In this document: positions 1 to 17,650 of the stretch, one piece after another | Layout: every line of letters begins with the position of its first letter | Numbering within the stretch: the stretch's first letter is position 1 | Assembly: GCF_000420465.1 (NCBI RefSeq) | Contig: NZ_ATUZ01000015.1 | Location: 124,001-188,000 of the forward strand | Direction: 5' to 3' | Origin: Desulfovibrio desulfuricans DSM 642 | GTDB lineage: Bacteria; Desulfobacterota; Desulfovibrionia; Desulfovibrionales; Desulfovibrionaceae | DNA: 64,000 nucleotides | Translations under genes and position numbers: made by a program | Notes under the pieces: generated by a model | What the model was told of the DNA's origin: nothing | Seen by the model: the letters and a program-made list of their open reading frames with translations, nothing else | Databases searched by the model: none

Positions 1-1
1 C

Positions 2-300: not shown

Positions 301-331
301 AGGCGCGACCAATCGCGCAAGAGAGTTTGTC

Positions 332-745: not shown

Positions 746-802
746 CCGCAGGCTCCGGCAGAACTCGCAGGACGCTCTTGCGGCGCGCATGAAAGCGCGT
801 GA

Positions 803-1819: not shown

Positions 1820-1821
1820 GA

Positions 1822-2274
1822 TTACTTCAGGATAAGCGCATTGGCTTCACAGGTGGCATCGGAAGCAAGCAGGCCGTTTTCGCGCAGATAGTCGCGGCCT
1901 TCGCGCGCAAAATCCGCATGCAGCGCGCCAGTTTCGATGCCGGGGCAGAAGTCCTTGGCCATGGCAAGGCTGGCCGGGTCTTCGATGTTGCCGCGAAAAA
2001 AGGGCCATGCGCGGCAGATTGAAGGCTTGCCCTCGTGCACGCCGCAGCCGCTGCCCTGGCGAAAAAATACACAGTAGCCGTCTTCGCCACAGCGAATTTT
2101 GAGCTTTCCGCCAATGCGTTCGCAATAGCTGCCTGCCACTGCTTCCGGTGCTTGCTGCATGTGCGCTGCCAGCCGGATCAGGTCTGTGGGGCTTACGACA
2201 ATGCCGCCTCTTCCTTCGCAGCAGTGGCCGCACATGCGGCAGTTGAAAACAGATTCTCCGTGAGCGGCAGACAT
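1822..2274 (-). CDS. YkgJ-type cysteine-cluster protein (putative metal-binding)
   Basis: A 150-residue protein with the N-terminal signature CRMCGHCC (Cys12, Cys15, Cys18, Cys19) and later cysteines in CGVHEGKPSICRAWPF and DFCPG. This is the UPF0153/YkgJ family, thought to bind a zinc or Fe-S centre through a Cx2Cx2CC...C array. No enzymatic role is established. It sits upstream of the J-domain gene with a 2-base gap and downstream of the CoA-binding gene with an 18-base gap, so the three probably form one minus-strand operon. Confidence 0.85.
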   Translation of the reverse strand: MSAAHGESVFNCRMCGHCCEGRGGIVVSPTDLIRLAAHMQQAPEAVAGSYCERIGGKLKIRCGEDGYCVFFRQGSGCGVHEGKPSICRAWPFFRGNIEDPASLAMAKDFCPGIETGALHADFAREGRDYLRENGLLASDATCEANALILK

Positions 2275-2292
2275 GGGCTATAATCCTTGGCC

Positions 2293-2718
2293 TTAAAAAG
2301 TGAGCGAGGGGCGCATGAGGCGCTCGTGTTCCACCATGATGCAGGAATCTTCAACCACTGTCATGCCTGTAGGGGCTAACAGCTGACGTGCCTCGATCGA
2401 GCGTATGCCAAGCTGCATCCAGAAAACTTTTGGTTTCCAGGGCAGATCCAGTACTTCCTGCGCGTGGGCGGGGCAGTATTCCGGCGCGCGAAACAGATTG
2501 ACGATATCCACTGGCTCGGGCAGCTCCGCAAGGCAGGTTGCCGCAGGCAGCCCCCATACGGTTTTGCGCACAGGATGGACAGGAAAAATCCTGTACCCCT
2601 GCTCCAGCAGATAGCGCCCGACCCTGTCCACGGCCTGTCCGGCTTTGTCCTTGGCGCCGATAATGGCGATGCTGCGTGATTCGCCAAACATGGCGCGCAT
2701 CAGTCTGTCGTCAAGCAT
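2293..2718 (-). CDS. CoA-binding (YccU-like) protein
   Basis: A 141-residue Rossmann-like protein of the CoA_binding_2 family. SIAIIGAKD near residues 16-24 is the nucleotide-binding first strand and loop. PVHPVRKTVWG and KVFWMQLGIRS match the family's later conserved segments. It is the size of the stand-alone YccU proteins, whose physiological role is not known. The start MLDDRLMRAM was chosen because the six extra upstream residues lack family similarity. It is first of a probable three-gene minus-strand operon. Confidence 0.8.
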   Translation of the reverse strand: MLDDRLMRAMFGESRSIAIIGAKDKAGQAVDRVGRYLLEQGYRIFPVHPVRKTVWGLPAATCLAELPEPVDIVNLFRAPEYCPAHAQEVLDLPWKPKVFWMQLGIRSIEARQLLAPTGMTVVEDSCIMVEHERLMRPSLTF

Positions 2719-2895
2719 AGTACATCCATGCCGCAAGAGGGCGGATTATCAGCGGGCAGCCCTTTGGGTTGCTCCCGTTAGTATATCTGTAATCAGTTTT
2801 AATAGACGGCAATGGCAAAATGCGCAAGTTCCCATCTCCGGTTTGGCAGAATCTTTTACCGAGGCAACGCTAACACCTTGCCTAATTTGGCAATT

Positions 2896-2923
2896 AAAAG
2901 GAGGCAGGGCAAGCCCCGCCTCC
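2896..2923 (-). terminator. Terminator of the antiporter gene
   Basis: GGAGGC-x-GGGC at 2900-2910 pairs with GCCC-x-GCCTCC at 2913-2923 with one internal mismatch. Reading the minus strand it is followed by TTTTAATT. It lies about 25 bases past the stop of the gene ending at 2949. Confidence 0.65.
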
Positions 2924-2948
2924 CTTGACGCAGCAATTGTGGAATGCG

Positions 2949-4967
2949 CTATACAGCCTTGGGCGAAGGGCTGGTTTCCTTGCCGGATTCGCGCAAAGGG
3001 CCGGAAAAGAGCGGGGTTATTGCCAGAAGTTTATCTGTTTTGCCAAAGAGGTACACCACATCGTCGGCTTCAAACAGGTCATTAGCTTCGGGCGAGGCCT
3101 GGGTCACGCCGTTACGCAGAATGGCAATGGCCGTTACGCCGTACTTGCGGCGCATCTGGCTTTGGGCAAGGCTGATGCCGCAAAGGGGCGAGGCGGCGGC
3201 AAGGCGCATGGCCTGAACGCCCATCTCCGGCAGGCGGCTGACCATGGAATCAAGCGAGTTTACCGATGCGCTCATGCGGCGGATCATGCGGTAATTCTCT
3301 TGCCGGATACGCGCGGCAAAGGTGTCTATATCCTGCCGGGGAACCAGATAGCGCGTCAGCACGCGGCTGAAAACCTCAATGGAGGTTTCAAATTCTTCCG
3401 CGATCACTTCGTTCGCGCCAAGCGCGCGCAGGGGGGCCACCTCGCTTACAAAGCGGGTGCGCGCAATGATGTGCAGGTTGGGGTTGAAACGGCGGGCTTC
3501 AATAACAATGGAGCGCACCGCCGCCGGGTCGGAAATGACGATGGCGAGCACACGCGCCTTGGTGACGCCCAGATGCTCCAGCACAATGGGCTGCGAGGCA
3601 TCGCCGTGCGAAATGGGTTCCTTGTGCCGATAGCGGGTAACGGTTTCAGGATTCATTTCAAGGATTGTGTAGCACACGCCGGATTCGCGGGCCACATGGG
3701 CCAGATGTTTGCCGCTGATGCCAAAGCCCACAATAATCAGGTGGTCATCCATGGCGCAGGCGCCTTCGTGGTCTTCGGCCTTGGCGAGCATCCTTTCGTT
3801 GCGCTTGCCCGCAACCTTGTCGGCAATACGCGGGGCCACAGCCATAAGGCCGGGGGTCAGCATCATGGTGAGCACGCTTACGTCAAGGAATGTCTGGTAG
3901 GCGTTCATGTCGAACAACCCGGCCGCCAGACCCGATGCCGCCAGAACAAAGGCAAATTCGCCCACCTGCGCGAGAGAAAGGGAGGTGATGATGGCTGCGC
4001 GCAGGGGATAGCCCTGCACCAGCACCGAAGGCAGGGTGAGCAGGGATTTTATGACGATGAACAGCACCGTCAGAACAATGATGGCGACAAAATGCTCTAA
4101 AAAAAACTCCAGATTCAGCATCATGCCCACCGAGATGAAAAACAGGCTCATGAAAACGTCACGGTAGGGCAGAATACCCGAAATAACGCTCATGCTGTAT
4201 TCTGAACGGGCGAGCATCAAACCGGCCAAAAAGGCCCCGAGCGAGAGCGAAAGGCCCAGATGGTTGGTCAGCATGGCCATGCCGAGGCACAGGCCAAGGG
4301 TGGAGAGCAGCAGTATTTCCCTCGTGCGGGTGCGCACCACGGCTTCCATAAGCCTGTTGAGGCCAAAGCGGGCAAACAGCAGCACGCCGCCCAGTACCAC
4401 CACCACGCGCAGGGTGGAGAACACCGCGCCCTGGAGCGAAAGTTCAAGCGTGCCCGCGAGCAGGGGCACCGCCAGCAGCATGGGTGCTACCATAATGTCC
4501 TGAAAAACAAGAATGGCGAGGGAAAGGCGGCCCGTGGGCGTGTTGGTGGCCCCGCGCTCCTGCAAAATGCGCAGTACGATGGCCGAGGACGAAAGCGCCA
4601 CCAGACAACCCCAGAAAAGGCCTTTCTGGTAGGTGGCGTCGCGCAGCAGCATGGCAATGCCTGCCACGGCAAGAACCGTCAGGCCGATTTGCAGGCTGCC
4701 GCCCAGAAAAACGGGCCGTTTCAGCCGGTTGAGGGCCTCGCCGGAAAGTTCCATGCCTATTGTGAACAGCAGCATGGCAACGCCGAGTTCTGCAATATGG
4801 TCAATGGCCTGCATATCCTTGACGATACCCAGCAGGGAAGGGCCGCACAAAACGCCTGTAAGCAGAAAGCCCACGGTGGCGGGCAGTTTTATTCTGTTGC
4901 AGACGATGGTGACGAATATTGAAAGAAGAAAAATAATGACGATTTCATAGAGCAAAGGAACTTCCAT
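2949..4967 (-). CDS. CPA2-family K+(Na+)/H+ antiporter with RCK domains
   Basis: A 672-residue KefB/YbaL-type monovalent cation:proton antiporter. The N-terminal ~390 residues form many hydrophobic segments of the Na+/H+ exchanger fold in the inner membrane. They include the glycine-rich GVAMLLFTIGMELS segment and the SLAQVGEFAFVLA segment typical of CPA2. A TrkA-N/RCK Rossmann domain follows (from about 412; IIVGFGISGKHLA). A TrkA-C domain lies near 590-655. RCK domains gate transport by binding nucleotide or ligand. A rho-type hairpin follows it, and it is probably its own transcription unit, separate from the nif operon. The exact ion is not decidable from sequence. Confidence 0.9.
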   Translation of the reverse strand: MEVPLLYEIVIIFLLSIFVTIVCNRIKLPATVGFLLTGVLCGPSLLGIVKDMQAIDHIAELGVAMLLFTIGMELSGEALNRLKRPVFLGGSLQIGLTVLAVAGIAMLLRDATYQKGLFWGCLVALSSSAIVLRILQERGATNTPTGRLSLAILVFQDIMVAPMLLAVPLLAGTLELSLQGAVFSTLRVVVVLGGVLLFARFGLNRLMEAVVRTRTREILLLSTLGLCLGMAMLTNHLGLSLSLGAFLAGLMLARSEYSMSVISGILPYRDVFMSLFFISVGMMLNLEFFLEHFVAIIVLTVLFIVIKSLLTLPSVLVQGYPLRAAIITSLSLAQVGEFAFVLAASGLAAGLFDMNAYQTFLDVSVLTMMLTPGLMAVAPRIADKVAGKRNERMLAKAEDHEGACAMDDHLIIVGFGISGKHLAHVARESGVCYTILEMNPETVTRYRHKEPISHGDASQPIVLEHLGVTKARVLAIVISDPAAVRSIVIEARRFNPNLHIIARTRFVSEVAPLRALGANEVIAEEFETSIEVFSRVLTRYLVPRQDIDTFAARIRQENYRMIRRMSASVNSLDSMVSRLPEMGVQAMRLAAASPLCGISLAQSQMRRKYGVTAIAILRNGVTQASPEANDLFEADDVVYLFGKTDKLLAITPLFSGPLRESGKETSPSPKAV

Positions 4968-5014
4968 GCAGCCTCCTGCGGCAATCTAGCACTGCGACCA
5001 TATACAGCGCAAGA

Positions 5015-5046
5015 CGCGCTGCCGCAACAATGTTTGCGGCAGCGCG
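5015..5046 (-). terminator. Stable hairpin after the last gene of the nif unit
   Basis: A perfect 13-base inverted repeat, CGCGCTGCCGCAA (5015-5027) and its complement (5034-5046), with a 6-base loop. It lies 55 bases after the stop at 5101. No clear U-tract follows on the minus strand, so it may be a weak terminator or an mRNA 3'-end stabiliser. Confidence 0.5.
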
Positions 5047-5100
5047 ATGCTCGTCCAACTGGTTGCAATGTAAGGCAGGGTGTGGTTGCTGCGCAAAACC

Positions 5101-6042
5101 TCAGCGGCTTTCGCGCATGTCGGGCAGAGCCACAAAAGGCCCGACAGTTATGCCCTGCGCCGGGGCCTGCATGACCTGTTTGCCATCCTCCATGCGTACC
5201 TGACCATTGGGCAGAAATTCTACCCGCAGGGGAACAACCACTGTGCGCAGCATGGTGAGCTGATCTTTTTCCATGCGCGGCGACATGCATTTCTGCTCCT
5301 TGCCCTGCTGCCAGCGCAAGGAACAGGCGGCGGTGACAAGGCTGGAAACCGTGCCGTCTTCACCAAAGCACAGGGAATTGGTGTCCCCGCAGATGGCCGA
5401 GGCAGCGGGGTCGTAGGCCGCAATCTGCCCAACGGCGGTCGGCACATGCGCAGGCCGCGCCGGTTCGCAGCTTCGCAGCGCGCCGCACTCGTAAAAGGCG
5501 CAGCCGTACCTCACGGGCATGGGGCCAAGTGGGGTAACGAGCCTGATTGTTTCGCCGGGCCAGAAGGTGACGCTTTCCAGCACGCCTGAAGGATAGAAAC
5601 GCAGGCCCTGAACCTTGGCGCTTATTTCCTGCCCGTGCAGGGAAAGGGATATCTGGCTTGCCAGTTTGCGCTCGTCCTGCTCTGTCCAGTAGCCGCTGAG
5701 TTTGCCTTTGCGCAGCAATATGCGCTTGAGCGCGCCGTTTCCGTGCCATGCCAGCCATTCGGCGGGCATGTCGCCAAGGGGCGTGCTTACGGTTGTTTGA
5801 TTTTGCAGCTCCAGACTGCGCCACATGCCGTTGGGGTAGAGGCAAAAGCTTTTGCCGCTGCTGCGGCGCACGTCTTCGGCTTCGTAAAGGGGCGTGAGCC
5901 AGCCGTGGGGCGTGGGCACGGTATCTTCTGCCAGCAGGCGGCAATCCTGCGGCGCGCCGCCGGGCCAGCGGGAGAGCACATGCACGTTGGCGATGGTGCC
6001 GTAGGGCGTATCAACAGTTTCAAATTGTAGGGCGGTACCCAT
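5101..6042 (-). CDS. Uncharacterised repeat protein at the 3' end of the nif operon
   Basis: A 313-residue protein with no signal peptide, no membrane segment and no family I can name firmly. It contains an imperfect repeat with aromatic-x-x-x-Gly-x-x-x-Ser strands. Examples are CLYPNGMWRSLEL, LRFYPSGVLESVTF, AFYECGALRSCE and VEFLPNGQVRM, alternating with TP-x-G turns (VDTPYG, VSTPLGDMP, VTPLGPMP). This pattern recalls MORN-variant or YwqK-like beta repeats. The start at 6042 is supported by AAGGAG eight bases upstream; an earlier in-frame Met at 6069 lacks one. It follows the AnfO-like gene on the same strand across a structured 135-base gap. Co-expression with nif is plausible but unproven. 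Confidence 0.7.
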   Translation of the reverse strand: MGTALQFETVDTPYGTIANVHVLSRWPGGAPQDCRLLAEDTVPTPHGWLTPLYEAEDVRRSSGKSFCLYPNGMWRSLELQNQTTVSTPLGDMPAEWLAWHGNGALKRILLRKGKLSGYWTEQDERKLASQISLSLHGQEISAKVQGLRFYPSGVLESVTFWPGETIRLVTPLGPMPVRYGCAFYECGALRSCEPARPAHVPTAVGQIAAYDPAASAICGDTNSLCFGEDGTVSSLVTAACSLRWQQGKEQKCMSPRMEKDQLTMLRTVVVPLRVEFLPNGQVRMEDGKQVMQAPAQGITVGPFVALPDMRESR

Positions 6043-6071
6043 ATCATAGACTCCTTGGAGCTGTAACACGT

Positions 6072-6179
6072 GAAATGCTCGCTCGCGTCAGGCAAAGCCT
6101 CTCAGCTCGCATTTCGTGGCAAGGATTTTTCTGAAAATCCTTGCAGAGCAGTTAACCCAGTTCATCCGTGAACTGCTCT
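6072..6179 (-). repeat. Triple-hairpin palindromic element after the AnfO-like gene
   Basis: Three inverted repeats are packed end to end. AGAGCAGTT (6145-6153) pairs with 6171-6179, whose outer end overlaps the TAG stop of the upstream gene. GCAAGGATTTT (6119-6129) pairs perfectly with 6134-6144 across a 4-base loop. GAAATGC (6072-6078) pairs with 6109-6115. The unit lies between the AnfO-like gene and the following gene, so it would be transcribed. It looks like a REP/BIME-type element or an intercistronic RNA structure. No second copy was seen in this window. Confidence 0.6.
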
Positions 6180-6828
6180 AACGTCCATTTGGCGCGGATT
6201 CGCCGCAAAGCGCATGCGAAATACGGGCTCGGACAGTTCCGTCTTCCTGTCGGGTGAGGGCGCATGTCAGGCGCTGCTGGCGCATGTGCTCCTCAAGCCA
6301 GGGGGGCATGTGCCCGCAGATGAGTTCCAGTTCCACAAAGGGCGTTGACGCAAAAAAGGGGCGCAAGGCTTTTTTTGACGTAATTTCCGGGTGTGCTGCC
6401 TGCACTTCCATAAGATTTATGCTGTATACACCGGGTGTATCTGTGGGCGTGGGCGCGGTGGGAACCTGCGCCTCCCCTTGGGCGGAAGCCAGAATCTCGC
6501 TGGCCAGGGCATCCAGAATATCGGGCGAGAATGCGTCCAGCTCGCACAGGCAAAAGCCCATGCGGCTCAGTTCATTGTAGGCAAGGCCGGAAATACTGGC
6601 CCCGGCTATGGCAGCCTCTGCAGGCAGCAGAAGGGCCAGCTGACGCAGCCGGTCGCGTATCTGGGGCAGGGTGGCACAGCCTTCAAGAGAAAAAGGCACA
6701 GGATCACAGGCATGCCAGCCCTTGCCCGTGCTCCAGTCGCGCTGCCAGACGGAAAGGTGGGTGCAGTTTTCCATGGCGGTGATTGAATTATCTGTATTTT
6801 CCAGCACGGCAATGCAGTCGCATTTCAT
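6178..6828 (-). CDS. AnfO-like nitrogenase accessory protein
   Basis: A 216-residue protein resembling the AnfO family (Fe-only nitrogenase accessory protein, role unproven). The family-like features are an N-terminal IAVLEN...LSVWQRD block, a central PFSL...LPQIRDRL helix near residues 45-60, and GASISGLAYNELSRMGFCLCELD near 78-100. The start at 6828 is chosen for GGAG six bases upstream; ATG 6840 lies inside that ribosome site. It follows nifV(alpha) by about 64 bases on the same strand, inside a molybdenum-type nif operon without anfHDGK in the window. It is thus more likely a general nitrogenase accessory here. Family assignment rests on pattern recognition only. Confidence 0.65.
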   Translation of the reverse strand: MKCDCIAVLENTDNSITAMENCTHLSVWQRDWSTGKGWHACDPVPFSLEGCATLPQIRDRLRQLALLLPAEAAIAGASISGLAYNELSRMGFCLCELDAFSPDILDALASEILASAQGEAQVPTAPTPTDTPGVYSINLMEVQAAHPEITSKKALRPFFASTPFVELELICGHMPPWLEEHMRQQRLTCALTRQEDGTVRARISHALCGESAPNGR

Positions 6829-6892
6829 GGCAATCTCCATATGCTTGGGGCAGGTGTCCGTGAGTATACTGGCGCAAAAGGCTCTTGTGTCT

Positions 6893-7756
6893 CTACAAGC
6901 CAAAAGGACGTGTGCCGTAGCTGTACCCCAAATGCTTGCCCCAGCCGTTCATGGATTTTTGCGGTAAAAGTGTGGCCGCAAGGCGCTCCAGCTCAAGAGC
7001 TTTGCGCGCATCCACCGCGCAGGAGGTATTGCCAAGCCGCGCGGCCGCCGCCGTAAAGGTGGCAAGCCCGCAGTTGCCCGCCCGTTCGCCAATGCCCCAC
7101 AGCGTGGTATTGACGTAGCGCGCCCCGGCGTTCACAGCCATGAGCGAATTGGCAACAGCCATGCCAAAGTCGTTGTGCGCGTGGATTTCCACATCCACGC
7201 CTGCTTCGCGCAGCATGCGCACGGCCCGCCAGACCTTGTCTGGCGTGTAACAGCCCACGGTATCGCTGAGCCGCACCCGCACCACGCCGCACTGACGCGC
7301 GGCCCTCGCCGCATCGCGCAACTGGTCGGGCGAGGCGTGGGAGGAATCTTCAAAACCAACTGTCACTTCCGCACCACGGCTTGCGGCGAGTGCCGCGCAC
7401 TTGGCAAGGGAGGCCATTACCTCGGCGCGGGTTGTTTTGAGTTTGTCCTTGATCTGCCGGTCAGAAACCGGGCAACACAGATGAATGATATGCGGAGAGC
7501 AGTCAAAGGAGTGGCGCACGTCGCTTTCGCGCAGGCGGTTCCAGGTGGAAACGCGGGCGTTGGAACAGGCCTCGCGGATGGAGCGGATGGTGGCCTTTTC
7601 GTTTTCGCCCATGGCGGGGACGCCCGCCTCGATCTGGTCCACGCCAGCTTCGTCCATCATGGCGGCAAGGCGGATTTTCAGGGCAGGGGGGAATGCAAAG
7701 CCGGGAGCCTGCTCGCCGTCGCGCAGGGTGGTATCGACAATAATGATCTCAGGCAT
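6893..7756 (-). CDS. nifV: Homocitrate synthase, alpha (catalytic) subunit
   Basis: A 287-residue TIM-barrel protein of the HMGL-like/NifV family. It joins acetyl-CoA to 2-oxoglutarate to make homocitrate, the organic ligand of FeMo-cofactor. Catalytic motifs are intact: DTTLRDGEQAPGF at the N-terminus, metal-binding HAHND, and GIGERAGN. It lacks the C-terminal accessory region of single-chain NifV (about 380 residues in Azotobacter). That region is supplied by the gene just upstream, as with nifV-omega/nifV-alpha of Clostridium pasteurianum. The two reading frames overlap by 8 bases (7749-7756), suggesting translational coupling and stoichiometric assembly. Confidence 0.88.
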   Translation of the reverse strand: MPEIIIVDTTLRDGEQAPGFAFPPALKIRLAAMMDEAGVDQIEAGVPAMGENEKATIRSIREACSNARVSTWNRLRESDVRHSFDCSPHIIHLCCPVSDRQIKDKLKTTRAEVMASLAKCAALAASRGAEVTVGFEDSSHASPDQLRDAARAARQCGVVRVRLSDTVGCYTPDKVWRAVRMLREAGVDVEIHAHNDFGMAVANSLMAVNAGARYVNTTLWGIGERAGNCGLATFTAAAARLGNTSCAVDARKALELERLAATLLPQKSMNGWGKHLGYSYGTRPFGL

Positions 7757-8693
7757 GGCCCACCTCCACAGAAACCGTTGTGCCCGAAAGACCGCAACAG
7801 TCCGTTCGGGCAGAAGACAAGGATTCGGGGGGATGGCATGCGTGACACAGGTCGAGAAACTGGGCATCGGTCAGGCTGCATTGCTGGCGCTCGGCAAGCT
7901 GCTGAACCAGTTCCAGCATATGTTCTTCCTCCGTGCGCGGCAAGTTCAAACCAAGCTGGCGGGCCTTGATGCGCAACGAAACGTGCCCTGAGTGCTTGCC
8001 CACCACTATCTGGCGTTCAAGCCCCACAGTAGCTGGAGCATATGGTTCGTAAAGAAAGGGCTTTTTGACAATGCCGTCCACATGGATGCCGGATTCAACA
8101 GCAAAAATATCCGTGCCCAGCACGGCCTTGTGGTGGGAAACTTCCAGGCCCGCCTCCCTGAGCAGGGCGGTTGCTTCGGGCAGTTTGTCCAGATGCGTCA
8201 GGCCTGTCTCCAGACCCTGAGCATACAGGCTCAGGGCCACTTCTTCCAGCGCAGGCCCGGCATCTGGGCCGTACAGGGCAGAGCCGCCAATGCAGCCTGC
8301 CACACGGGGGCCGCCCTTGAGCAGCCACAGCACGGCAAGAGCCGTGGCGCAGCCCGCATGATCGCCGGGGCAGAACTCCACCGTATCCTTGATGGCGGCA
8401 AAGCGCGGCCAGAATTCCGTTTCAAAGGTATAAAGAGCGTCACAGCAACCGCTCAGGCGCGCCCAGGGGCCGTTAAGGATCGGGCGTTTGCCCGTGCGGC
8501 GGGCCTTGACGCTGGCTGCTGTAAATTGAAGGTCTGGGGGAATTTCGACCACAAAACCCATGTGGTGCATGAGGTCGATCCATTCCCCGGCCCAGAGCGC
8601 AAATGCGTCTGCGGTCTGCCTTTCCTCTAGCGAGTGCGCGGCTGGCAGCACCCGGTAGAGCAGGCAGAGCGTTCTGTCCACCAGTTGCGGCAT
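7749..8693 (-). CDS. nifV: Homocitrate synthase, omega (accessory) subunit
   Basis: A 314-residue partner of the catalytic subunit. The C-terminal half carries the accessory-domain signature of isopropylmalate/homocitrate synthases (GIHVDGIVKK, LYEPYAP, VVGKHSGHVSLR). The N-terminal ~190 residues look like a decayed TIM barrel. The position of the HxHND metal motif reads PGDHAG, and GxGERxGN is replaced by IGGSALYG, so this chain should not be catalytic alone. This matches the omega half of a two-gene NifV. The stop codon lies inside the alpha start (ATGCCTGA overlap). It is separated from nifN/B by a gap holding a strong hairpin. Confidence 0.82.
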   Translation of the reverse strand: MPQLVDRTLCLLYRVLPAAHSLEERQTADAFALWAGEWIDLMHHMGFVVEIPPDLQFTAASVKARRTGKRPILNGPWARLSGCCDALYTFETEFWPRFAAIKDTVEFCPGDHAGCATALAVLWLLKGGPRVAGCIGGSALYGPDAGPALEEVALSLYAQGLETGLTHLDKLPEATALLREAGLEVSHHKAVLGTDIFAVESGIHVDGIVKKPFLYEPYAPATVGLERQIVVGKHSGHVSLRIKARQLGLNLPRTEEEHMLELVQQLAERQQCSLTDAQFLDLCHACHPPESLSSARTDCCGLSGTTVSVEVGHA

Positions 8694-8727
8694 GGAAATA
8701 ACCTCTTGGCAAAGATGGCGTGTGCCC

Positions 8728-8758
8728 CGGCCTGACCGGTTTGCCTCCGGCCAGGCCG
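8728..8758 (-). promoter_or_regulatory. Intercistronic hairpin between nifN/B and nifV
   Basis: CGGCCTG-A-CCGG at 8728-8739 pairs with CCGG-C-CAGGCCG at 8747-8758, with one mismatch and a 7-base loop. It sits 16 bases after the nifN/B stop and 35 bases before the omega start. With no U-tract it is better read as an attenuating or RNA-stabilising structure than as a full terminator. Confidence 0.6.
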
Positions 8759-8774
8759 TTGGATTGGGCCGGAA

Positions 8775-11489
8775 TTATCCGCAGAGCGCCCTGGCGGCGT
8801 CATTCACGGCCTTGTCCACATTTTCATAGAGGGTGAACACGCGTATTCCCTTGGTCTCAAGCTTTTTCAGCGGGCTTTCGCCTATGCGCAGGGCCAGCAC
8901 TCCCTTGCAGTCGTCCACGGCGGCCAGAATGCCCGCCATGCGCCCGGTCTTTTCTCCGCAGTCGTCCATGCCGTTGCAGTATTTGGAGACACTGCGGGTT
9001 TCCACGTAGCTGGCGGCGTCGCCGTCGCTTTCGTAGATGTAGAACTGCTCGGCCTGACCAAAGTGCTGATCAACGGTCATGCCTGTCTTGGAAGCCACGG
9101 CAATGCGTATCTTGCGGGCCACGGCGGGCTTGGCTTCCACAGCGGCAGCGGGGGCCTTTTCGGCCACGGGCGGGCGGTAATCAATGGACTTGTCGTCGCC
9201 CAGCAGGCCCACGGCGTCGGCGCGGCACTGCTTGCAGTGGTACATCTGCTTGAGCGTGGGCTCGCAGCTGCGGCGCATGTCCATGAGCTCCTTGTTGCTC
9301 ACAAGGGGCATGTTTTCAAAAACGCTGCCCTTGACCGGGATGAGCTGCATGATGTTGGTCATCACAGCGCCCAGTTCGCGCGCGGTTTCCACCACCTGCG
9401 GGATGTGCCCGTCGTTGATGCCCTTGAGCAGCACCGTGTTGACCTTGCTCACAATGCCCGCCTGGGAGAGGGCGCGCAGGCCAGCCATCTGGTTTGCCAG
9501 CAGGAGGGCTGCTGCGGTTTCGCCCGTGTAGCGCTTGCCTCTGTACATGGCGAATTTGTAAATCTGCGCGCCAATGGCGGGGTCAACGGCGTTGATGGTC
9601 ACGGTGGCGTGGCTCACGCCCACGCGCTTCATGTCTTCCACGTATTCCGGCAGGGCCAGGCCGTTGGTGGACATGCAGAATGTGATATTGGAGTCTTCCC
9701 TGCGGATCATCTCCAGCGTGCGGAAGGTTTCCTCGGGATTTGCCAGCGTGTCGCCGGGGCCGGCGATGCCCACAACAGTAAGATTGGGCATGTCGCGCTT
9801 TACTTTCATAAAGTGGTCAAAAGCCTGTGCGGGCGTGAGCACGGCGGTGGTGACGCCGGGGCGGCTTTCGTTAACGCAGTCGTACTTGCGCAGGCAGTAG
9901 TTGCAGCTCAGGTTGCACTTGGGCGCGATGGGCAGATGCAGACGCGCCGAGGTGGCGCAGGCCCCACAGGAAAAACAGGGGTGGGACTTGGTGCGCTCAG
10001 CATTCAGGGCGGCGGCGCTGCCAGCGGCATGGGCGTCTGTAGGGGCAGTTACAGGCACAAGCGGCTCGCTGGCGGGGGCCACAACTTCTATGCGGGTGGC
10101 ATCAGCTTCCATGACGGCTTCATCCTTGAAGTATTTGTTGAGAAGCTCCTCGCGGAAGCTGCCCTCGGTGAACTGCAACATGGCGTTGGCCGTGGCTTCC
10201 ATGAGGCTGAGCGAACCGTCATAGAAGAGCATGCGGGTGCGCTGGCCGCCAACCCTGTCGTGGATGGGAAAGCCGTAGCGCAGCAGCGGAATGTGGTGGC
10301 GTTCCTCAATGCGGCGGCCATCGGAATTGCCAAGCATGAGGTTGGCCTTGCGCGCCAGCATGGCGTTTTCAATGGCGGCAAAGTCTGCAAAATTCAGAAT
10401 GTCGTAATCGCCGCTGAACTGGGTTTCCGTAGCCTGAGCCATATCGGGCGCAAGCGTTTTTTCAAAGGCGGCGCAGCGGCTGCCGGTGGCGGCCACCACG
10501 GGGACGGCTCCATTTTCGCACGAGGCGCGCACAAGGGCCAACACCATGTCCGGCTCGCCAAATACGGCAACGCGGCTTTGGGCGTTATACTTGTGCGCAT
10601 CAATCATGGCGTCAAGGTAGCGGGCGCGTTCTTCGCGCACAGTGGCGGGGATGGTTCCGCCAAGGGCTTCAAGCGTGGCGACAAAGGCATCGGTATCGCG
10701 CAGGCCCACAGGCAGGTTCATGCGCAGGAGCGGTACGCCGTAGGTATCGCGCAGGTACGCGCCAGGGGAATAGCCCTCGGGGCAGAAGGGCGCAAGTTCG
10801 AGCGTCATGCGCGCGCCAGCCATGAGGCCGATGCGGGCAAGTGTGGTACCGTATTGGGGCAACCGGTTGTAGTCGTCTTCATGCCCGCCATCAAGATTCT
10901 GCGAAAGGTCGGGCAGCAGCACATATTCAAGGCCGCTGGCCTCAAGCAGCAGCTTGAGCGCTCTGGTATCCGCCGCAGAGAAGTGCCCGGTGATGATGTT
11001 GATCACGTTGTTGGGCGTGGCGTTCATGGGCACATGGCGCACAATGGCGTGCAAAGCGCGGAAAAAGCCCTCGTACTGCGAGCCGCTGTAGCCCGGCGAG
11101 ACCACGGGAATGATGGTGGCCGTCACTTCCGGGTGTTCATCCTTGAACTGCTTGATGATGGCGGGCACGTCCTCGCCGATGGTTTCGGCAAGACAGGTTG
11201 TGGAAACGCCGATCACCTCGGGGTTGTAGAGCTTGATGAGGTTTTCAAGCCCCTTGAGCAGGTTCTTGGTGCCGCCAAAGACCGTGCCTTCTTCCGTAAG
11301 CGAAGAGGAGGCGATATCCACCGGCTCATTGTAATGGGTTGCCATGTGCCGCCGAATGTAAGTGCTGCACCCCTGCGAACCGTGCAGAATGCTCATGCTC
11401 TTGCTGATGCCGTAAAAGGCGCTTACCGAACCCATGGGCATGCACATCTTGCAGGGATTTGTATTCAGGTTGACAAGATTGGCGCTCAT
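8775..11489 (-). CDS. nifB: NifN-NifB fusion (FeMo-cofactor assembly scaffold plus radical SAM)
   Basis: A 904-residue fusion. Residues 1 to about 460 are NifN, a NifK-like partner of NifE in the scaffold where the cofactor precursor matures. Conserved cysteine segments include NPCKMCMPMG, HGSQGC and TTCLAETIGED. An Ala/Pro-rich linker follows (about 465-500). From about 500 comes NifB, with HPCFSCGAC and the radical-SAM Cx3Cx2C motif KCNLSCNYC (Cys525, Cys529, Cys532); it builds the carbide-containing NifB-co cluster. Residues from about 793 form the NifX/NafY-like cofactor-binding domain (VDQHFGQAEQF). A similar fusion is known from Clostridium pasteurianum. ATG 11489 has AGGAG upstream; an earlier Met at 11549 does not fit homology. 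Confidence 0.93.
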   Translation of the reverse strand: MSANLVNLNTNPCKMCMPMGSVSAFYGISKSMSILHGSQGCSTYIRRHMATHYNEPVDIASSSLTEEGTVFGGTKNLLKGLENLIKLYNPEVIGVSTTCLAETIGEDVPAIIKQFKDEHPEVTATIIPVVSPGYSGSQYEGFFRALHAIVRHVPMNATPNNVINIITGHFSAADTRALKLLLEASGLEYVLLPDLSQNLDGGHEDDYNRLPQYGTTLARIGLMAGARMTLELAPFCPEGYSPGAYLRDTYGVPLLRMNLPVGLRDTDAFVATLEALGGTIPATVREERARYLDAMIDAHKYNAQSRVAVFGEPDMVLALVRASCENGAVPVVAATGSRCAAFEKTLAPDMAQATETQFSGDYDILNFADFAAIENAMLARKANLMLGNSDGRRIEERHHIPLLRYGFPIHDRVGGQRTRMLFYDGSLSLMEATANAMLQFTEGSFREELLNKYFKDEAVMEADATRIEVVAPASEPLVPVTAPTDAHAAGSAAALNAERTKSHPCFSCGACATSARLHLPIAPKCNLSCNYCLRKYDCVNESRPGVTTAVLTPAQAFDHFMKVKRDMPNLTVVGIAGPGDTLANPEETFRTLEMIRREDSNITFCMSTNGLALPEYVEDMKRVGVSHATVTINAVDPAIGAQIYKFAMYRGKRYTGETAAALLLANQMAGLRALSQAGIVSKVNTVLLKGINDGHIPQVVETARELGAVMTNIMQLIPVKGSVFENMPLVSNKELMDMRRSCEPTLKQMYHCKQCRADAVGLLGDDKSIDYRPPVAEKAPAAAVEAKPAVARKIRIAVASKTGMTVDQHFGQAEQFYIYESDGDAASYVETRSVSKYCNGMDDCGEKTGRMAGILAAVDDCKGVLALRIGESPLKKLETKGIRVFTLYENVDKAVNDAARALCG

Positions 11490-11510
11490 TGTCTTCTCCT
11501 TATGTTCCAG

Positions 11511-11526
11511 GCGGCCTTTGGGCCGC
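11511..11526 (-). promoter_or_regulatory. Short intercistronic hairpin between nifE and nifN/B
   Basis: GCGGCC (11511-11516) pairs with GGCCGC (11521-11526) around a 4-base loop, in the 75-base gap between the nifE stop and the nifN/B start. It is the weakest of the three nif intercistronic structures. Confidence 0.4.
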
Positions 11527-11564
11527 GGCGGCGGGCAAACTGCGTGCAAGCCGATTACGCTGTG

Positions 11565-12992
11565 CTAGAAATGTGCTGCTCTTGCTGCCAGGGCTTCACG
11601 CACCAGACTGGCCTGCGCCTGCGTTGCCTCGGCAAATGAGGCAGAGCTGCGCGTGAACTGCCACACGGGGCTGTTGATGGAAAGGTTCACCTCGCGGGTG
11701 AAGTTTTCCACGCCTTCAAAGCCGCCCAGAGCGTGCTTGCGCTCGTGGTTATGGTCGCAAAAGGCAATACCCAGCTTGTAGGCGAGCGGGCGTTCCTTGA
11801 CGCCGCCAACCAGAATATCCGCGCCTTTCTGCTTCATGAAGGTTTCAAGCTCTGCGGGATTGGCGTCGTCCAGAATGACGGTGCCGGGGTTAACGAGGCT
11901 TGAAATGATTTCATAATCTTCAGGCTTGCCGGTCTGGGTGCCGACCACCACGGTTTCAATGCCCATTTCGTTAAACTGACGGATGAGCGATATGGCCTTG
12001 AAGCCGCCGCCCACAAAGATGGCGGCCTTTTTGCCCACAAAGTGCGGCTTGTACTGTTCAAGAAAAGCTTCAGCCTTTGCGCCGCGTTCAGAAATAAGGG
12101 CCTCTGCCTTGCGCTTGGCGTAGTCGTCATTGAGGCGCTCGGCCACCTGCCGCAGGGCGGTGGAGGTGTCTTCCACCCCAAAGAAGCTGGCGCGCATCCA
12201 GGGAACGCCCATTTCGTCTTCCATGCGGTGGGCCAGATACATCATGGAGCCAGCGCACTGCACGATGTTGAGCTGGGCAGCCGGGGCCTTGATGAGCGTT
12301 TCGTACGCGGCATCGCCCGTGAGGGTGGCGACAATGGGAATGCCCATCTCGCGCAGGTAGTTGCGGATAATCCACATTTCGCCCGCAAGGTTGTAGTCGC
12401 CAAGAATGTTGACGCCCTTGATCTTGGGCTGTTCCTTGTGCGGCTCCATAAGCTGCACAAGTGCGTTGCAGGCCATGCGGTAGCCCGTGGACTTGGTGCC
12501 AGAAAAGCCCGGAGCCTTGACCGCGATCACGCGGATGCCGTGCTTTTTTTCCGCATTGCGGCACACGGCTTCCACATCGTCGCCGATAACGCCCACAATG
12601 CAGGTGGCGTACACAAAGATAAGCTTGGGCGAATAGTTGGCTACGGCTTCGTCAATGGCGCGGGTGAGCTTTTCCGCACCGCCAAAGACGATGTCTTTTT
12701 CCTGCAAGTCAGTGGAAAAACTGTTGCGGAACAGTTCCGACCCGCTGGTGAGGCTGCCGCGAATGTCCCAGGTGTAGCTGGCGCAGCCGATGGGGCCGTG
12801 AACGATATGAAAGGCATCGGTAATGGGGTTTAACACCACGCGCGCACCGCAGTACACGCAGGCCCGCTGGCTCACGGAACCGGCCACGCTGGCCGTATCG
12901 CAACGCAGGCCGTCGCCGCTACAGCAGCCCCCGCCCTTGTTTCCCTTTTCCTTGATGGACGTACGGCGTTCTTCAAGTATTTCCATAGCCAT
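11565..12992 (-). CDS. nifE: FeMo-cofactor biosynthesis scaffold protein NifE
   Basis: A 475-residue NifD-like subunit of the NifEN scaffold, which matures NifB-co by adding molybdenum and homocitrate. Cluster-binding cysteine regions are visible: ACVYCGARVVLNPI (Cys45, Cys48), HGPIGCASYTWD (Cys70) and YATCIVGVIGDD. The N-terminus has an extra GGCCSGDGLRC cysteine-rich stretch. The partner NifN is encoded next, fused to NifB. The start MAMEILEERR has an AAGGGGG ribosome site directly upstream and lies 61 bases after nifK, with a GC hairpin in that gap. Confidence 0.95.
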   Translation of the reverse strand: MAMEILEERRTSIKEKGNKGGGCCSGDGLRCDTASVAGSVSQRACVYCGARVVLNPITDAFHIVHGPIGCASYTWDIRGSLTSGSELFRNSFSTDLQEKDIVFGGAEKLTRAIDEAVANYSPKLIFVYATCIVGVIGDDVEAVCRNAEKKHGIRVIAVKAPGFSGTKSTGYRMACNALVQLMEPHKEQPKIKGVNILGDYNLAGEMWIIRNYLREMGIPIVATLTGDAAYETLIKAPAAQLNIVQCAGSMMYLAHRMEDEMGVPWMRASFFGVEDTSTALRQVAERLNDDYAKRKAEALISERGAKAEAFLEQYKPHFVGKKAAIFVGGGFKAISLIRQFNEMGIETVVVGTQTGKPEDYEIISSLVNPGTVILDDANPAELETFMKQKGADILVGGVKERPLAYKLGIAFCDHNHERKHALGGFEGVENFTREVNLSINSPVWQFTRSSASFAEATQAQASLVREALAARAAHF

Positions 12993-13007
12993 GGGAACCC
13001 CCTTGCA

Positions 13008-13053: not shown

Positions 13054-14418
13054 CTACATAATCAGATCCATGTCTTCGTCAGCACAGTTGCGGTCAAACT
13101 CTTCCATGAGCGTATCAGCGATCCGGGTGGCGAGCTGGAAGGCTCCACGGTAGCCGACCATGGGCAGCGAGGCGTGTCCGTAGCGGTCAAGCACCGGGAA
13201 GCCGGCGCGAACCAGCGGAATGCCCTCGGCCTTGGCGATCTGCTTGCCGTGAGAGTTGCCAAGCAAGAGATCAACGGGTTCTTCCTTGATGAACTGGTGC
13301 AGGTCAAAGAGATCCTTGGCGGCAAAGGCCTGGCACTCTTCTTCCTTGCCGTATTCCTTGAACATGCCTTTGGCCAGCTTGACGAAGGTTTCGCCGGGCG
13401 TACCGGTGAGCACGTACTTGGGGATCATGCCCAGTTCGAGGCAGAAGCGGGTCATGCCAAGCACGGTGTCGGGGTCGCCGTACACGGCAACCTTTTTACC
13501 GTAGAAGTACGGGTTGGCGTCCAGCATGAGGTCGAGCAGGCGACCGCGTTCTTCGTCAATAAGCGGGTCGACTTCGCCGCCGTTGAGGTTTGCCATGGCC
13601 ATGACAAAGGCATCGGTATCGGCCAGGCCGATGGGCAGGGGCAACAGGTCGTAGTCCACGCCGCATTTGCGCTTGAGCTGGGCGGCGGGTTCCTCGCTGG
13701 TCAGGCGGCCAAGGGCCAGAACCTTGCGGCAGGTGCCGAGGGCGCGGATTTCTTCAACCGTGGTGCCGCCATCAGGGTACATCTTGTATTCGCCGGTCAT
13801 GGGGGCATCCATGACGTTGCTGCAATCGGGGAACATGATGGACTTGAGCTTCATCAGGTTCACAAGGTGCTTGTATTCACGGATGTCGCCGGGGTTTACG
13901 AAGCCGGGGAACACCGCCACGGTTTCCGTGGTCTTGCCCTTGGCGGCAAGGTATTTGATGAACCCGGCCATCATGTTGGCAAATCCCGTCACGTGCGAGC
14001 CAACGTAGCTCGGCGTGTTGCAGTGCACCACGATCTTGTCGTCCGGAATTTCCATTTCGTCGATGTAGGTCTTGAGGTCATCGCCGATGGTTTCAGAAAG
14101 ACATGTGGTATGCACGGCAATAATATCAGGGTTGTAGACCTCAAAAGTGGTCTTGACGCCCTGACGGATGTTGGGGCCGCCGCCGAACACGCAGGCGCCT
14201 TCGGTAAAGGAACTGGTGACGGCTATGGCGGGTTCCTTGAAGTGACGCGTAAGGTAGGTGCGGTGGTAAGAAGCACAACCCTGCGATCCGTGGCTGTAAG
14301 GCATGCAGTTGCGCACGCCCAGGGCGGCAAACAGCGCACCCACCGGCTGACAGGTCTTGCACGGGTTGATAAGAACGCCCGATCTGTTCACATGTGTCTT
14401 TGGGGTGAGGTCAAGCAT
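13054..14418 (-). CDS. nifK: Nitrogenase molybdenum-iron protein beta chain
   Basis: A 454-residue beta subunit of dinitrogenase. P-cluster ligand regions are present: NPCKTCQPVGA (Cys23), HGSQGCASY (Cys48) and TTCLSETIGDD (Cys106). It lacks the roughly 50-residue N-terminal extension of Azotobacter NifK, as in the Clostridium pasteurianum type. The ATG at 14418 lies one base after the nifD stop (TAG-T-ATG), so translation is coupled and the alpha2beta2 enzyme should be made in equal amounts. Confidence 0.97.
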   Translation of the reverse strand: MLDLTPKTHVNRSGVLINPCKTCQPVGALFAALGVRNCMPYSHGSQGCASYHRTYLTRHFKEPAIAVTSSFTEGACVFGGGPNIRQGVKTTFEVYNPDIIAVHTTCLSETIGDDLKTYIDEMEIPDDKIVVHCNTPSYVGSHVTGFANMMAGFIKYLAAKGKTTETVAVFPGFVNPGDIREYKHLVNLMKLKSIMFPDCSNVMDAPMTGEYKMYPDGGTTVEEIRALGTCRKVLALGRLTSEEPAAQLKRKCGVDYDLLPLPIGLADTDAFVMAMANLNGGEVDPLIDEERGRLLDLMLDANPYFYGKKVAVYGDPDTVLGMTRFCLELGMIPKYVLTGTPGETFVKLAKGMFKEYGKEEECQAFAAKDLFDLHQFIKEEPVDLLLGNSHGKQIAKAEGIPLVRAGFPVLDRYGHASLPMVGYRGAFQLATRIADTLMEEFDRNCADEDMDLIM

Positions 14419-14419: not shown

Positions 14420-16009
14420 CTATTCTCCCACAGTTCCTTGCAGGGTGGCGCGGTTCTTCCAGGGCGGGGTTACCATGTGCCATGCGGGGGTGAAGTACCC
14501 CATGCAGAGGTCGTAACCGAACTGCGTTGCGCCCTTGAAACCCGCGTAAGGCCCGCTGTAATCGTAGCTGTGCAACTGGCGCGAGAGCGTCCCGGCCTTT
14601 TGCAACGCGTACTTGTCCTTGATGCCGGAGAAGAACATGTCGGGCTTGAGGATTTCCATAAATTTTTCAGCTTCGTACATGTTGAGGTCGTCAACCACGT
14701 AGGTTCCCTCATCCATGTCGCGTATCATGCCATCGTACTTTTCAAGCGGGATTTCGGCGGCCAGCTTGTCGTATTGTTCCTGCGTAAGGTAGGCGTGATA
14801 CTTCTTTTCGTCCTTTTCCACGGTGATGTGTTCGATGTTCTTGCTGTCCGCGTCGTCCTTGATGTTGGGGATGATTTCCCGGCCTTCGTAGTCGTCGCGG
14901 TGGCCGAATTCGTACCCGGCAAGCACTGTCTTGATGCCCAGATCCTGCAACAGGCCCTGATAGTGGTGCGAGCGGCTGCCGCCCACAAAAAGGGCTGCGG
15001 TCTTGCCGTTGAGGCGGGCCTTGTAGGCCGCCATCTGATCCTGCACTTCGGCCAGTTCTTCGGCGATAACCTGTTCAGTACGCTGTGCAAGCTCTGGGTC
15101 GCCAAAGTAGGCAGCCATGTCGCGCAGGCTCTGAACCGTTCCTTCCAGGCCGATAAAGTTGACCTTGAGCCAGTCCACGCCGTACTTGGTCTTCATCATT
15201 TCGGCGATGTAGTTGATGGAGCGGTGGCACTGCACAAGGTTCAGGTTGGCCTTGTGCGAGCTGGCGATGCGGTCCACTTCGCCATCGCCCGTGAACACCG
15301 AAACCACTTCGTAGCCGATCTTTTTGAGAATGCGTTCCTGTTCCCAGCCGTCGCCGCCGATGTTGTATTCGCCAAGGATGTTGATCGAATACTTGGTGGC
15401 GGGTTCATAATCGCCAGTACCGATAACGCGCTTCATGAGGCCGTTGTTGGCGATGTGGTGGCCCGCCGACTGGCTTACGCCCTTGTAACCCTCGCAGCTG
15501 TACGCCACGCAGCGGATGCCGTATTCTTGTTCAGCTTCTGCGGCCACGGCCTGAATGTCGTCACCGATCAGGCCCACAGGGCAGGTGGCGGCGATCATGA
15601 TGGTCTTGGGGTGCATAAGCTCCATGATTTCATCAATGGCCTTCTTGAGCTTCTTGGTGCCGCCAAAGACGATGTCCGGTTCCTGCATGTCTGTGGTAAA
15701 GCAGTACTGGATGTAATTGGGGGTATCCCCTTCCGCCTTGGCCTTGTTGCGGCGCGTACCCCAGCTATAGAAGCCGCAGCCCACAGGGCCGTGGGTAATC
15801 AGGACCATATCCTTGATTGGGCCGAGCACAACGCCCTTGCAGCCAGCGTAACAGCAGCCCCGGTTGGTCATGATGCCGGGAATGGCACGCGTGTTGGCGA
15901 TAATAATCTGGTCTTCCGCAGGATTGACCTTGAGCATATGCTCCTTGCGGTTCTTGAAGACCTTGGCGTTGTAGCGCTCAAGCACTACTGCGTTGGCGTC
16001 AATACTCAT
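14420..16009 (-). CDS. nifD: Nitrogenase molybdenum-iron protein alpha chain
   Basis: A 529-residue alpha subunit carrying FeMo-cofactor. P-cluster ligand regions are RGCCYAGCKG (Cys52), GPVGCGFYSWG (Cys78) and ATCPVGLIGDD (Cys143). Cofactor ligands are the Cys in LVQCHRSINYI (Cys261) and the His in LSRQLHSYDYSGPY. Around residues 385-440 there is an extra charged segment (KDEKKYHAYLTQEQYDKL region), like the insertion in the Clostridium pasteurianum enzyme. Together with short NifK and the nifI genes this marks a group II molybdenum nitrogenase. The His and Cys pattern argues against a vanadium or iron-only type, supported by the absence of a delta-subunit gene. Confidence 0.97.
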   Translation of the reverse strand: MSIDANAVVLERYNAKVFKNRKEHMLKVNPAEDQIIIANTRAIPGIMTNRGCCYAGCKGVVLGPIKDMVLITHGPVGCGFYSWGTRRNKAKAEGDTPNYIQYCFTTDMQEPDIVFGGTKKLKKAIDEIMELMHPKTIMIAATCPVGLIGDDIQAVAAEAEQEYGIRCVAYSCEGYKGVSQSAGHHIANNGLMKRVIGTGDYEPATKYSINILGEYNIGGDGWEQERILKKIGYEVVSVFTGDGEVDRIASSHKANLNLVQCHRSINYIAEMMKTKYGVDWLKVNFIGLEGTVQSLRDMAAYFGDPELAQRTEQVIAEELAEVQDQMAAYKARLNGKTAALFVGGSRSHHYQGLLQDLGIKTVLAGYEFGHRDDYEGREIIPNIKDDADSKNIEHITVEKDEKKYHAYLTQEQYDKLAAEIPLEKYDGMIRDMDEGTYVVDDLNMYEAEKFMEILKPDMFFSGIKDKYALQKAGTLSRQLHSYDYSGPYAGFKGATQFGYDLCMGYFTPAWHMVTPPWKNRATLQGTVGE

Positions 16010-16020: not shown

Positions 16021-16398
16021 TTATGCGTCAGCGCGCTCGCCCGTGCGAACCACATAGGATTCTTCCACCGGCATCACAAAGATCTTTCCATCGCCGGGGT
16101 GGCCGGTGCTGTTGGCCTCTATAATGGCCTTGACCACAGCTTCGACCTTTTCATCGGGAACGCAGATATTGAACAACCGCTTGGGGATCAGCCTGCCCAC
16201 TTCGGTCAGGGATTCGCCCGCCGGAGTGCGCGGCAGCTCGCCGCTTTCCATAACCATGCGCAGGGTGGCGGGATCCATACCTTTTTTGCCGCGTCCCAGG
16301 CACTTGGTGCATGAGAATGAGGGGCATCCGGCCTTGGACAGGGCGTTCTTTGTAGCCGCCACCATGTTGGCTCGAACCATTGCAACTATTTCCTGCAT
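16021..16398 (-). CDS. nifI2: PII-like nitrogenase regulator NifI2
   Basis: A 125-residue PII-superfamily protein. NifI1 and NifI2 form a complex that binds dinitrogenase and switches its activity off in ammonium, relieved by 2-oxoglutarate and ATP (known from Methanococcus). The PII core is seen in the N-terminal EIVAMVRANM strand and in the C-terminal HPGDGKIFVMPVEESYVVRTGE. A long T-loop-like insertion starts near residue 24 (CPSFSCTKCLGRGKKG). It is placed between nifI1 and nifD, the standard order. Confidence 0.92.
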   Translation of the reverse strand: MQEIVAMVRANMVAATKNALSKAGCPSFSCTKCLGRGKKGMDPATLRMVMESGELPRTPAGESLTEVGRLIPKRLFNICVPDEKVEAVVKAIIEANSTGHPGDGKIFVMPVEESYVVRTGERADA

Positions 16399-16407: not shown

Positions 16408-16731
16408 CTACAGGCCGGACTTGCCGCTGCTGATGGTCCAGGCCTCGCTGACGCTTGAAACAAATATTCTGCCATCGCCAAAGTGACCGTCGCCCGTTTT
16501 TGCCACGCGCAGGATAACGCGGATGGCATCGTCCTTGTCTTCATCGCTGACCACAAGCATGAGCATCTGCTTGGGAATTTCGTCGTACTGAATGTCGCCC
16601 ACCATGATGCCTTTCTGCTTGCCACGGCCCACCACATCAAGCTTTGTAACGGCGGGAAAGCCCGCTGACAGCAGCTCGGAGAGAACCTCGGTGGTCTTTT
16701 CAGGCCGAATAATCGTGCGAATCATCTGCAT
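16408..16731 (-). CDS. nifI1: PII-like nitrogenase regulator NifI1
   Basis: A 107-residue PII-superfamily partner of NifI2 in post-translational ammonium switch-off of nitrogenase. Core strands are MQMIRTIIRPEKTTEVLSEL and GDGHFGDGRIFVSSVSEAW near the C-terminus. The T-loop region reads GRGKQKGIMVGDIQYDEIPK and lacks the canonical uridylylated Tyr context of GlnB, as expected for NifI1. It starts 27 bases after nifH and ends 9 bases before nifI2. Confidence 0.92.
   Translation of the reverse strand: MQMIRTIIRPEKTTEVLSELLSAGFPAVTKLDVVGRGKQKGIMVGDIQYDEIPKQMLMLVVSDEDKDDAIRVILRVAKTGDGHFGDGRIFVSSVSEAWTISSGKSGL

Positions 16732-16758: not shown

Positions 16759-17650
<892 letters not shown>

Follow-up and report, generated by a model that had tools for sequence, protein, structure and literature searches.

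An AnfO-like protein and a beta-rich protein tied to nitrogen fixation at the end of a molybdenum nif cluster: a candidate maturation module

Introduction

Why does a gene of a family named for iron-only nitrogenase stand at the end of a molybdenum-type nif cluster, and what is the gene beside it? The question is raised by a 64,000-nucleotide stretch of the Desulfovibrio desulfuricans DSM 642 genome (positions 124001-188000 of contig NZ_ATUZ01000015.1, hereafter the window; the 3.39 Mb genome is rated 100% complete). Here a split nifV is followed on the minus strand by a gene for a 216-residue AnfO-like protein (6178..6828; ATG at 6828, stop at 6178) and then by an open reading frame for a 313-residue protein, p313 (5101..6042; ATG at 6042, stop at 5101). 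A reading of the sequence alone had placed these two genes at the close of a molybdenum nif operon and proposed that they share a nitrogenase-related role; both open reading frames lie where it put them, on the minus strand. We describe p313 as a member of an unnamed protein family tied to nitrogen fixation, a process in which it very probably has a role, and present evidence that AnfO and p313, where paired, are likely to function together as a module.

AnfO is best described from Azotobacter vinelandii, where it excludes FeV- and FeMo-cofactor from the Fe-only nitrogenase (PMC11938142, PMC9310841). Its N-terminal domain binds the apo-FeFe protein and its C-terminal domain binds FeMo-co, the full-length protein also binds FeV-cofactor, and His203 is essential whereas Cys159 and Cys201 are dispensable (PMC11938142). 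The gene has appeared in molybdenum settings before: it is listed, with no comment beside the entry, in the Mo nif cluster of Desulfotomaculum gibsoniae (PMC4148979), and a supplementary figure legend to the 2024 description of Desulfofundulus salinus places anfO among nif genes (PMC11206085). The passages of PMC7341956 that deal with anfO name it only within an Fe-only cluster.

Results

p313 co-occurs with nitrogen fixation genes

Among 199 genomes sampled from the window's family, a p313 relative was found in 101 and nifD in 116, with both present in 100; in 58 genomes of the Bacillota order that includes Ruminiclostridium, p313 was found in 16, nifD in 26 and AnfO over its cut-off in 17, and all 16 p313 genomes have both nifD and AnfO. 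Fisher tests of p313 against nifD, which ignore shared ancestry, gave p values of 4.5e-38 for the family and 6.6e-8 for the order. The one exception in the family, a genome with p313 but no nifD match, is an assembly of 66% completeness. In the family sample nifD was called at an expectation value (E) of up to 1e-60, a limit that also admits NifE and alternative alpha subunits; the best match in each positive genome was 9.3e-132 or better, stronger than NifE-type matches. It served as the marker in place of nifB, for which a limit of 1e-100 proved too strict: 63 of the 199 genomes were positive, and several matches fell right at the limit. Within the window's genus, p313 is present in nine of nine nif-bearing genomes and in none of the seven that are nif-less.

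A scan of named genomes returned 64 p313 loci, from Desulfovibrionaceae, Desulfobacter, Clostridia and Propionibacteriaceae, and also from Pontiella, Spirochaetes, a Lentisphaerae metagenome-assembled genome (MAG) and a Methanoplasma MAG. A nifD-type match was present in 45 of the 47 source genomes examined, some of which overlap with the family sample; for one Desulfobacter locus (L064 in our numbering) it reaches only NifE strength, and the two genomes that have none are MAGs (L062, L067).

The sequence-only reading had staked its link on p313 homologs lying mostly close to nif genes, and this part did not hold. On a tally made by eye from coordinates, 39 of the 101 family p313 genomes have p313 and nifD on one contig no more than 11 kb apart, and a nif-type match was seen in the locus DNA examined at 22 of the 64 named loci. 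Yet the distant p313 genes are nearly all in nif-bearing genomes; the functional link therefore stands, while the physical link has often been lost.

p313 pairs with AnfO in distant lineages

In the Ruminiclostridium order 17 of the 19 p313 genes are next to AnfO, and five of the pairs have no nifD-type match within 15 kb on the contig, at least one of these contigs being short. AnfO adjoins p313 at 11 of the 64 named loci, with spacing from a 22-base overlap to a 118-base gap. These 11 include Clostridia (one of them, L076, is also in the order sample), relatives of Desulfovibrio, and an archaeal MAG in which the pair is beside nif genes. In three Bacillota genomes an alternative-nitrogenase cluster (anf in two, vnf in one) contains a second AnfO-p313 pair: the alpha and beta subunits at L133 are AnfD and AnfK over their cut-offs, the alpha subunit at L135 is VnfD over its cut-off, and the type of the L134 cluster was judged from similarity only. 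Chance neighbourhood was rejected on the strength of this pairing together with the co-occurrence. The AnfO inside the vnf cluster of L135 was unexpected given the family name. We also noted that nifB adjoins the second pair in L133 and L134 and, in L135, lies at the opposite end of the cluster.

Other p313 genes have other cofactor genes as neighbours. Directly upstream of p313 lies nifB, over or at its cut-off, in Desulfobacter loci L064 and L068, and a nifV-like gene below the NifV cut-off in Pseudodesulfovibrio locus L055. The gene preceding p313 in L103 was considered as a further nifV and rejected; it is of aldolase type, nearer to 4-hydroxy-2-oxovalerate aldolase than to NifV.

Stand-alone p313 genes carry sigma-54-like sites

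The 200 bases upstream of stand-alone p313 genes were scored against the -24/-12 consensus, a site being defined as at least 9 of 11 positions matched at -70 to -20. Such a site was present at 19 of 34 stand-alone p313 loci versus 5 of 354 other genes of the same loci, counts in which related species are not independent, the control starts come from a simple gene caller, and five of the 34 p313 starts (L059, L067, L096, L098, L105) fall off a start codon and are uncertain. The 34 are those of 40 loci kept with aligned starts, after removal of L065 (AnfO-paired), L074 and L109 (contig ends) and L079, L080 and L084 (uncertain start). L065, L079, L080 and L084 have no site of at least 9 positions, and counting them as negatives gives 19 of 38. 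No sigma-54-like site was seen at the propionibacterial loci L081, L082, L087 and L090. NifA-type upstream sites (TGT-N10-ACA) were found at 1 of the 40 stand-alone loci versus 19 of 388 genes among the controls. A sigma-54 activator related to AnfA/VnfA was predicted to control the nif operon of D. vulgaris (PMC4641369). Together with the nifD co-occurrence and the finding of AnfO next to p313 both in Bacteria and in an archaeal MAG, the stand-alone sites lend support to the shared nitrogenase-related role first proposed for the two genes.

The AnfO-like protein in a genome without alternative nitrogenase

The family assignment from sequence was borne out: Pfam AnfO_nitrog (PF09582) matches residues 6-192 of the AnfO-like protein at 121.8 bits against a gathering cut-off of 30.3. 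The protein falls short of the NCBIfam AnfO equivalog TIGR02940 (61.2 bits against 129.15) and did not reach the NifX family in NCBIfam, AnfO being the sole model returned at E up to 1. The absence of anfHDGK noted from the window also extends to the whole genome as far as AnfD and AnfG are concerned. The AnfD model matched nifD and nifE, both below cut-off, and the AnfG/VnfG model gave no match; because the genome shows no AnfD or AnfG/VnfG, the AnfO-like protein here presumably serves the Mo-nitrogenase. Service to an anf system elsewhere in the genome was rejected on the same results.

This arrangement recurs. AnfG/VnfG was present in 8 of 28 AnfO-positive genomes searched and not seen in 20, several of the latter being incomplete MAGs. 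In the window's genus AnfO is over cut-off in 9 of 16 genomes, five of which have two copies; these are exactly the five with AnfG, and the second copy adjoins anfHDGK.

The predicted structure of the AnfO-like protein comprises an N-terminal NifX/NafY-type domain (residues about 1-118) and a C-terminal domain (about 123-208), the placement of the domains being uncertain (predicted template modelling score, pTM, 0.55). The N-terminal domain matches the NafY core (1p90; Z 9.9, 3.8 Å over 111 residues, Foldseek E 1.6e-4) and NifX on NifEN (9ian_F; Z 10.0, 3.5 Å over 111 residues, Foldseek E 5.9e-4), and most of the top ten fold matches are titled dinitrogenase-cofactor proteins or carriers. A sequence search found no solved structure related to the protein. 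The C-terminal domain carries the motif C171-x-H173-x-P-P-W, in which H173 is unchanged in 12 of 12 aligned AnfO-like sequences. Judged from the published C-x-H spacing, and not from a sequence alignment, H173 is the probable counterpart of A. vinelandii His203.

A single residue of this motif follows nitrogenase type. Of 44 AnfO sequences, 26 are nif-linked and 7 unlinked, and all 33 of these read H-x-P-P-W; the other 11, of alternative type, all read H-x-P-[RK]-W. These counts are inflated by near-copies. For nine of the alternative-type copies the assignment comes from their location in anf or vnf clusters; L122 and L123 were typed by genome content only, with AnfG on another contig. Five of the seven unlinked copies (L136, L137, L139, L142, L143) come from genomes outside the 28-genome AnfG search, each with just two nifD-type matches, as expected for nifD and nifE. 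Four genomes hold both motif types, each in its expected place (L065/L149, L133/L147, L134/L145, L135/L146). In a short tree search the alternative label required at least two changes on the AnfO tree, and a single accident of descent is therefore unlikely.

p313 is a repetitive, beta-rich protein

The sequence-only reading could not assign p313, and no Pfam or NCBIfam family is matched over cut-off. The strands and turns it had described are real: the protein has 5 T-[PA]-x-G turns and 9 overlapping aromatic/His-x-x-(x)-Gly matches, neither count being reached in 5000 residue shuffles, with both patterns defined after the sequence was viewed. DUF7406 (PF24155) aligns with residues 76-97 at 20.7 bits, below its cut-off of 28.4, and at E up to 0.01 is found in 10 of 28 aligned p313 relatives, the window's included. 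Our literature searches recognised no published description of p313 and found no mention of DUF7406 in the papers covered.

Structure prediction for p313, proposed at the outset as a check, gave a confident model (predicted local distance difference test score 93, pTM 0.88, from 49 sequences) that is all beta apart from one helix. Its best fold matches (the top eleven) are to OspA variants and a TCP10 domain, with Z of 6.4-6.7 and root mean square deviations of 7.9-12.2 Å; we take both to be single-layer beta-sheet proteins. Residues about 200-303 match domains that we class as SH3-like at Z 4-5, possibly by chance, and Z values in either range are common for unrelated folds and lie in the range of chance arrangements. 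Foldseek gave no match at E up to 0.001, and its best (E 0.09) is too weak to mark the fold as either new or known. Profile searches of p313 and its relatives recognised no DNA-binding or small-molecule domain. An extended sheet that binds a partner would be consistent with the model. Many relatives outside the window's genus share an S-x-C or S-L-C site and a cysteine close to the C-terminus, both of which the aligned p313 proteins of the genus mostly lack.

Layout and origin of the cluster

The minus-strand order is nifH, two PII-like genes, nifD, nifK, nifE, a nifN-nifB fusion, the split nifV, the AnfO-like gene and p313. First in the cluster is nifH (16759..17580; TIGR01287 over cut-off), with a sigma-54-like site at -69 that matches 9 of 11 consensus positions. 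The PII-like genes (16408..16731, matching a PII model below cut-off, and 16021..16398, an open reading frame with no NCBIfam match at 1e-10) are presumably nifI1 and nifI2, names we assume from position. There follow nifD of the Mo type (14420..16009; TIGR01282, 658.5 bits, over cut-off), nifK (13054..14418; best model TIGR01286 at 422.0 bits, just below the cut-off of 427.3), nifE (11565..12992; TIGR01283 over cut-off) and the nifN-nifB fusion with a NifX-like tail (8775..11489; TIGR01290 over cut-off, with matches to TIGR01285 and TIGR02663). Homocitrate synthase (6893-8693) is encoded by two overlapping genes, the first being nifV-omega for the C-terminal part (7749..8693; HCS_D2 and a NifV C-terminal match) and the second nifV-alpha for the N-terminal HMGL part (6893..7756; probable start 7756), a half-length protein that scores below the full-length NifV cut-off. 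A split nifV with the C-terminal part first is known from Clostridium pasteurianum. All of these genes are on the minus strand. Beyond p313, the next gene on that strand encodes a CPA2-type K+/H+ antiporter with TrkA domains (window 2949-4967). No RNA family reached its gathering score in window positions 1-20000, and PADLOC gave no match to a defence function.

The AnfO-like gene begins 64 bases past nifV, and p313 another 135 bases on. The 135-bp gap (6043..6177) is filled by a palindromic dispersed repeat with inverted repeats, which has 11 matches in the genome counting itself and partial ones; in three relatives the two genes are closer, at 47 bases (L002), 9 bases (L005) and a 4-base overlap (L004). 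A promoter and terminator scan found no minus-strand site in the gap, so that p313 is likely to be transcribed by read-through from the nif promoter.

By best tblastn segments, the window's NifH and NifD are 89% and 69% identical to those of Ruminiclostridium, against 71-81% for NifH at six loci of the window's own family (L055, L069, L088, L092, L095, L097) and 52-53% for NifD at four of the six. In a short tree search, p313 of the window's genus falls outside a 21-row clade in which most of the family's other copies are grouped. These two observations suggest that the nif cluster, the AnfO-p313 pair included, may have been acquired horizontally from a Clostridia-like source.

Discussion

On balance we lean towards the view that the AnfO-like protein and p313 form a cofactor-delivery or proofreading module matched to its isozyme. 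The pair would act in nitrogenase maturation, here of the Mo-nitrogenase. The NifX/NafY-type domain of the AnfO-like protein would dock on cofactor-free NifDK and the C-terminal domain, with His173, would hold FeMo-cofactor or a precursor, such that the right, finished cofactor is inserted. As an extended beta-sheet protein, p313 could be an adaptor or partner of the AnfO-like protein, perhaps in direct contact with it, either on the still immature nitrogenase or while cofactor is being passed on. In genomes without AnfO, p313 would still act at the cofactor stage, which fits its nifB and nifV-like neighbours elsewhere.

Several observations weigh against this proposal. AnfO over cut-off is lacking in 89 of the 101 family p313 genomes, and p313 is missing in 7 of 19 AnfO genomes of the family and 1 of 17 of the Ruminiclostridium order; neither protein, therefore, depends on the other. 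No p313 was found in the DNA examined around the anf-linked AnfO genes L115-L119, from the window's genus, and L149, from C. intestinale. Nor is p313 essential for nitrogen fixation as such, since it is missing in 16 of 116 nifD genomes of the family and 10 of 26 of the order, and neither p313 nor AnfO-like relatives were found on PLSDB plasmids, though 253 records, mostly rhizobial, have nifK relatives. The TIGR02940 cut-off does not sort AnfO by nitrogenase type: the L133 copy, from an anf cluster, scores 94.1 and is below it, and the L135 copy, from a vnf cluster, scores 149.8 and is above. No solved relative of p313 was found by sequence apart from one chance-level match (E 0.32), and its fold matches are weak. 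To these are added shared ancestry, which the co-occurrence tests ignore, and the uncertain domain placement in the AnfO-like model. Because the equivalog cut-off is uninformative and p313 often occurs without AnfO, we lowered our estimates for the module and for its mechanism slightly.

The strongest alternative, which we nevertheless consider unlikely, is that the AnfO-like protein is a plain FeMo-co chaperone, a NafY-like insertase, and that p313 belongs to the nif regulon independently, with no tie to it beyond the common operon. The NafY/NifX fold of the first domain is what such a chaperone would have, and the 89 family genomes with p313 and without AnfO speak for two separate proteins. 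A merely shared operon sits poorly with the five adjacent pairs of the Bacillota order that have no nifD-type match nearby, and with the second copies found together inside anf and vnf clusters in three genomes. It is more doubtful still that p313 is a regulator or sensor of Mo, Fe or nitrogen status that adjusts nif expression or nitrogenase activity in the manner of the PII-like NifI proteins. Stand-alone p313 genes with a sigma-54-like site of their own and the weakly SH3-like C-terminal part would suit a regulator, but the SH3-like matches may be chance, no DNA-binding or small-molecule domain was recognised, and the adjoining nif neighbour is often a cofactor gene (AnfO, nifB or nifV-like). 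Least probable is a generic anti-misincorporation AnfO-like factor that guards NifDK against NifB-co or W- or V-substituted cofactor, with p313 protecting nitrogenase in some other way, for instance in folding or under stress. AnfO of A. vinelandii has been shown to act against misincorporation (PMC9310841, PMC11938142), but only one nitrogenase was found here and hence no competing FeV- or FeFe-cofactor.

We advance only tentatively the wider idea that AnfO and p313, the latter a hitherto unnamed nitrogen-fixation family, proofread cofactor for nitrogenases in general, and not for the Fe-only enzyme in particular, in an isozyme-matched manner, possibly with a pair of their own for each of the Mo, V and Fe-only systems, and that proline (Mo) versus arginine or lysine (Fe/V) tunes the match to cofactor or apo-enzyme. 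How cofactor is matched to nitrogenase is an open question that bears on nitrogenase building in other hosts, and the single-residue signature makes cofactor sorting directly testable. Our results indicate that, in genomes with no alternative enzyme, Mo-nitrogenase is what AnfO relatives serve. They also turn an unassigned hypothetical gene into a strong candidate for a nitrogen-fixation protein, whose range extends from sulfate reducers through Clostridia, Propionibacteriaceae and Spirochaetes to an archaeal MAG.

How do the two proteins compare with known systems? For p313 the likenesses are slight: identity to OspA and the TCP10 domain is 7-15% in the alignments and their biology is different, and resemblance to DUF7406 (PF24155) is limited to 22 of 313 residues and is under the Pfam cut-off. 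The AnfO-like protein is akin to NafY, NifY and NifX through residues 1-118, which share their fold (Z about 10), and through its proposed docking on apo-NifDK and holding of cofactor, with identities to the NafY core and NifX of just 15-16% in the fold alignments. A difference is that its key histidine, by analogy with AnfO, would be in the second domain, whose fold matches were of other kinds. With A. vinelandii AnfO it shares an AnfO_nitrog match over cut-off, two domains, a NifX-like N-terminal domain and a C-x-H histidine in the C-terminal domain; it differs in scoring below the equivalog cut-off, in lying in a Mo nif cluster, within a genome where the search for anf found none, and in having p313 next to it. 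Finally, compared with the anf- and vnf-type copies that we examined, among which the A. vinelandii sequence was not included, it has a proline three residues past the histidine where theirs have arginine or lysine.

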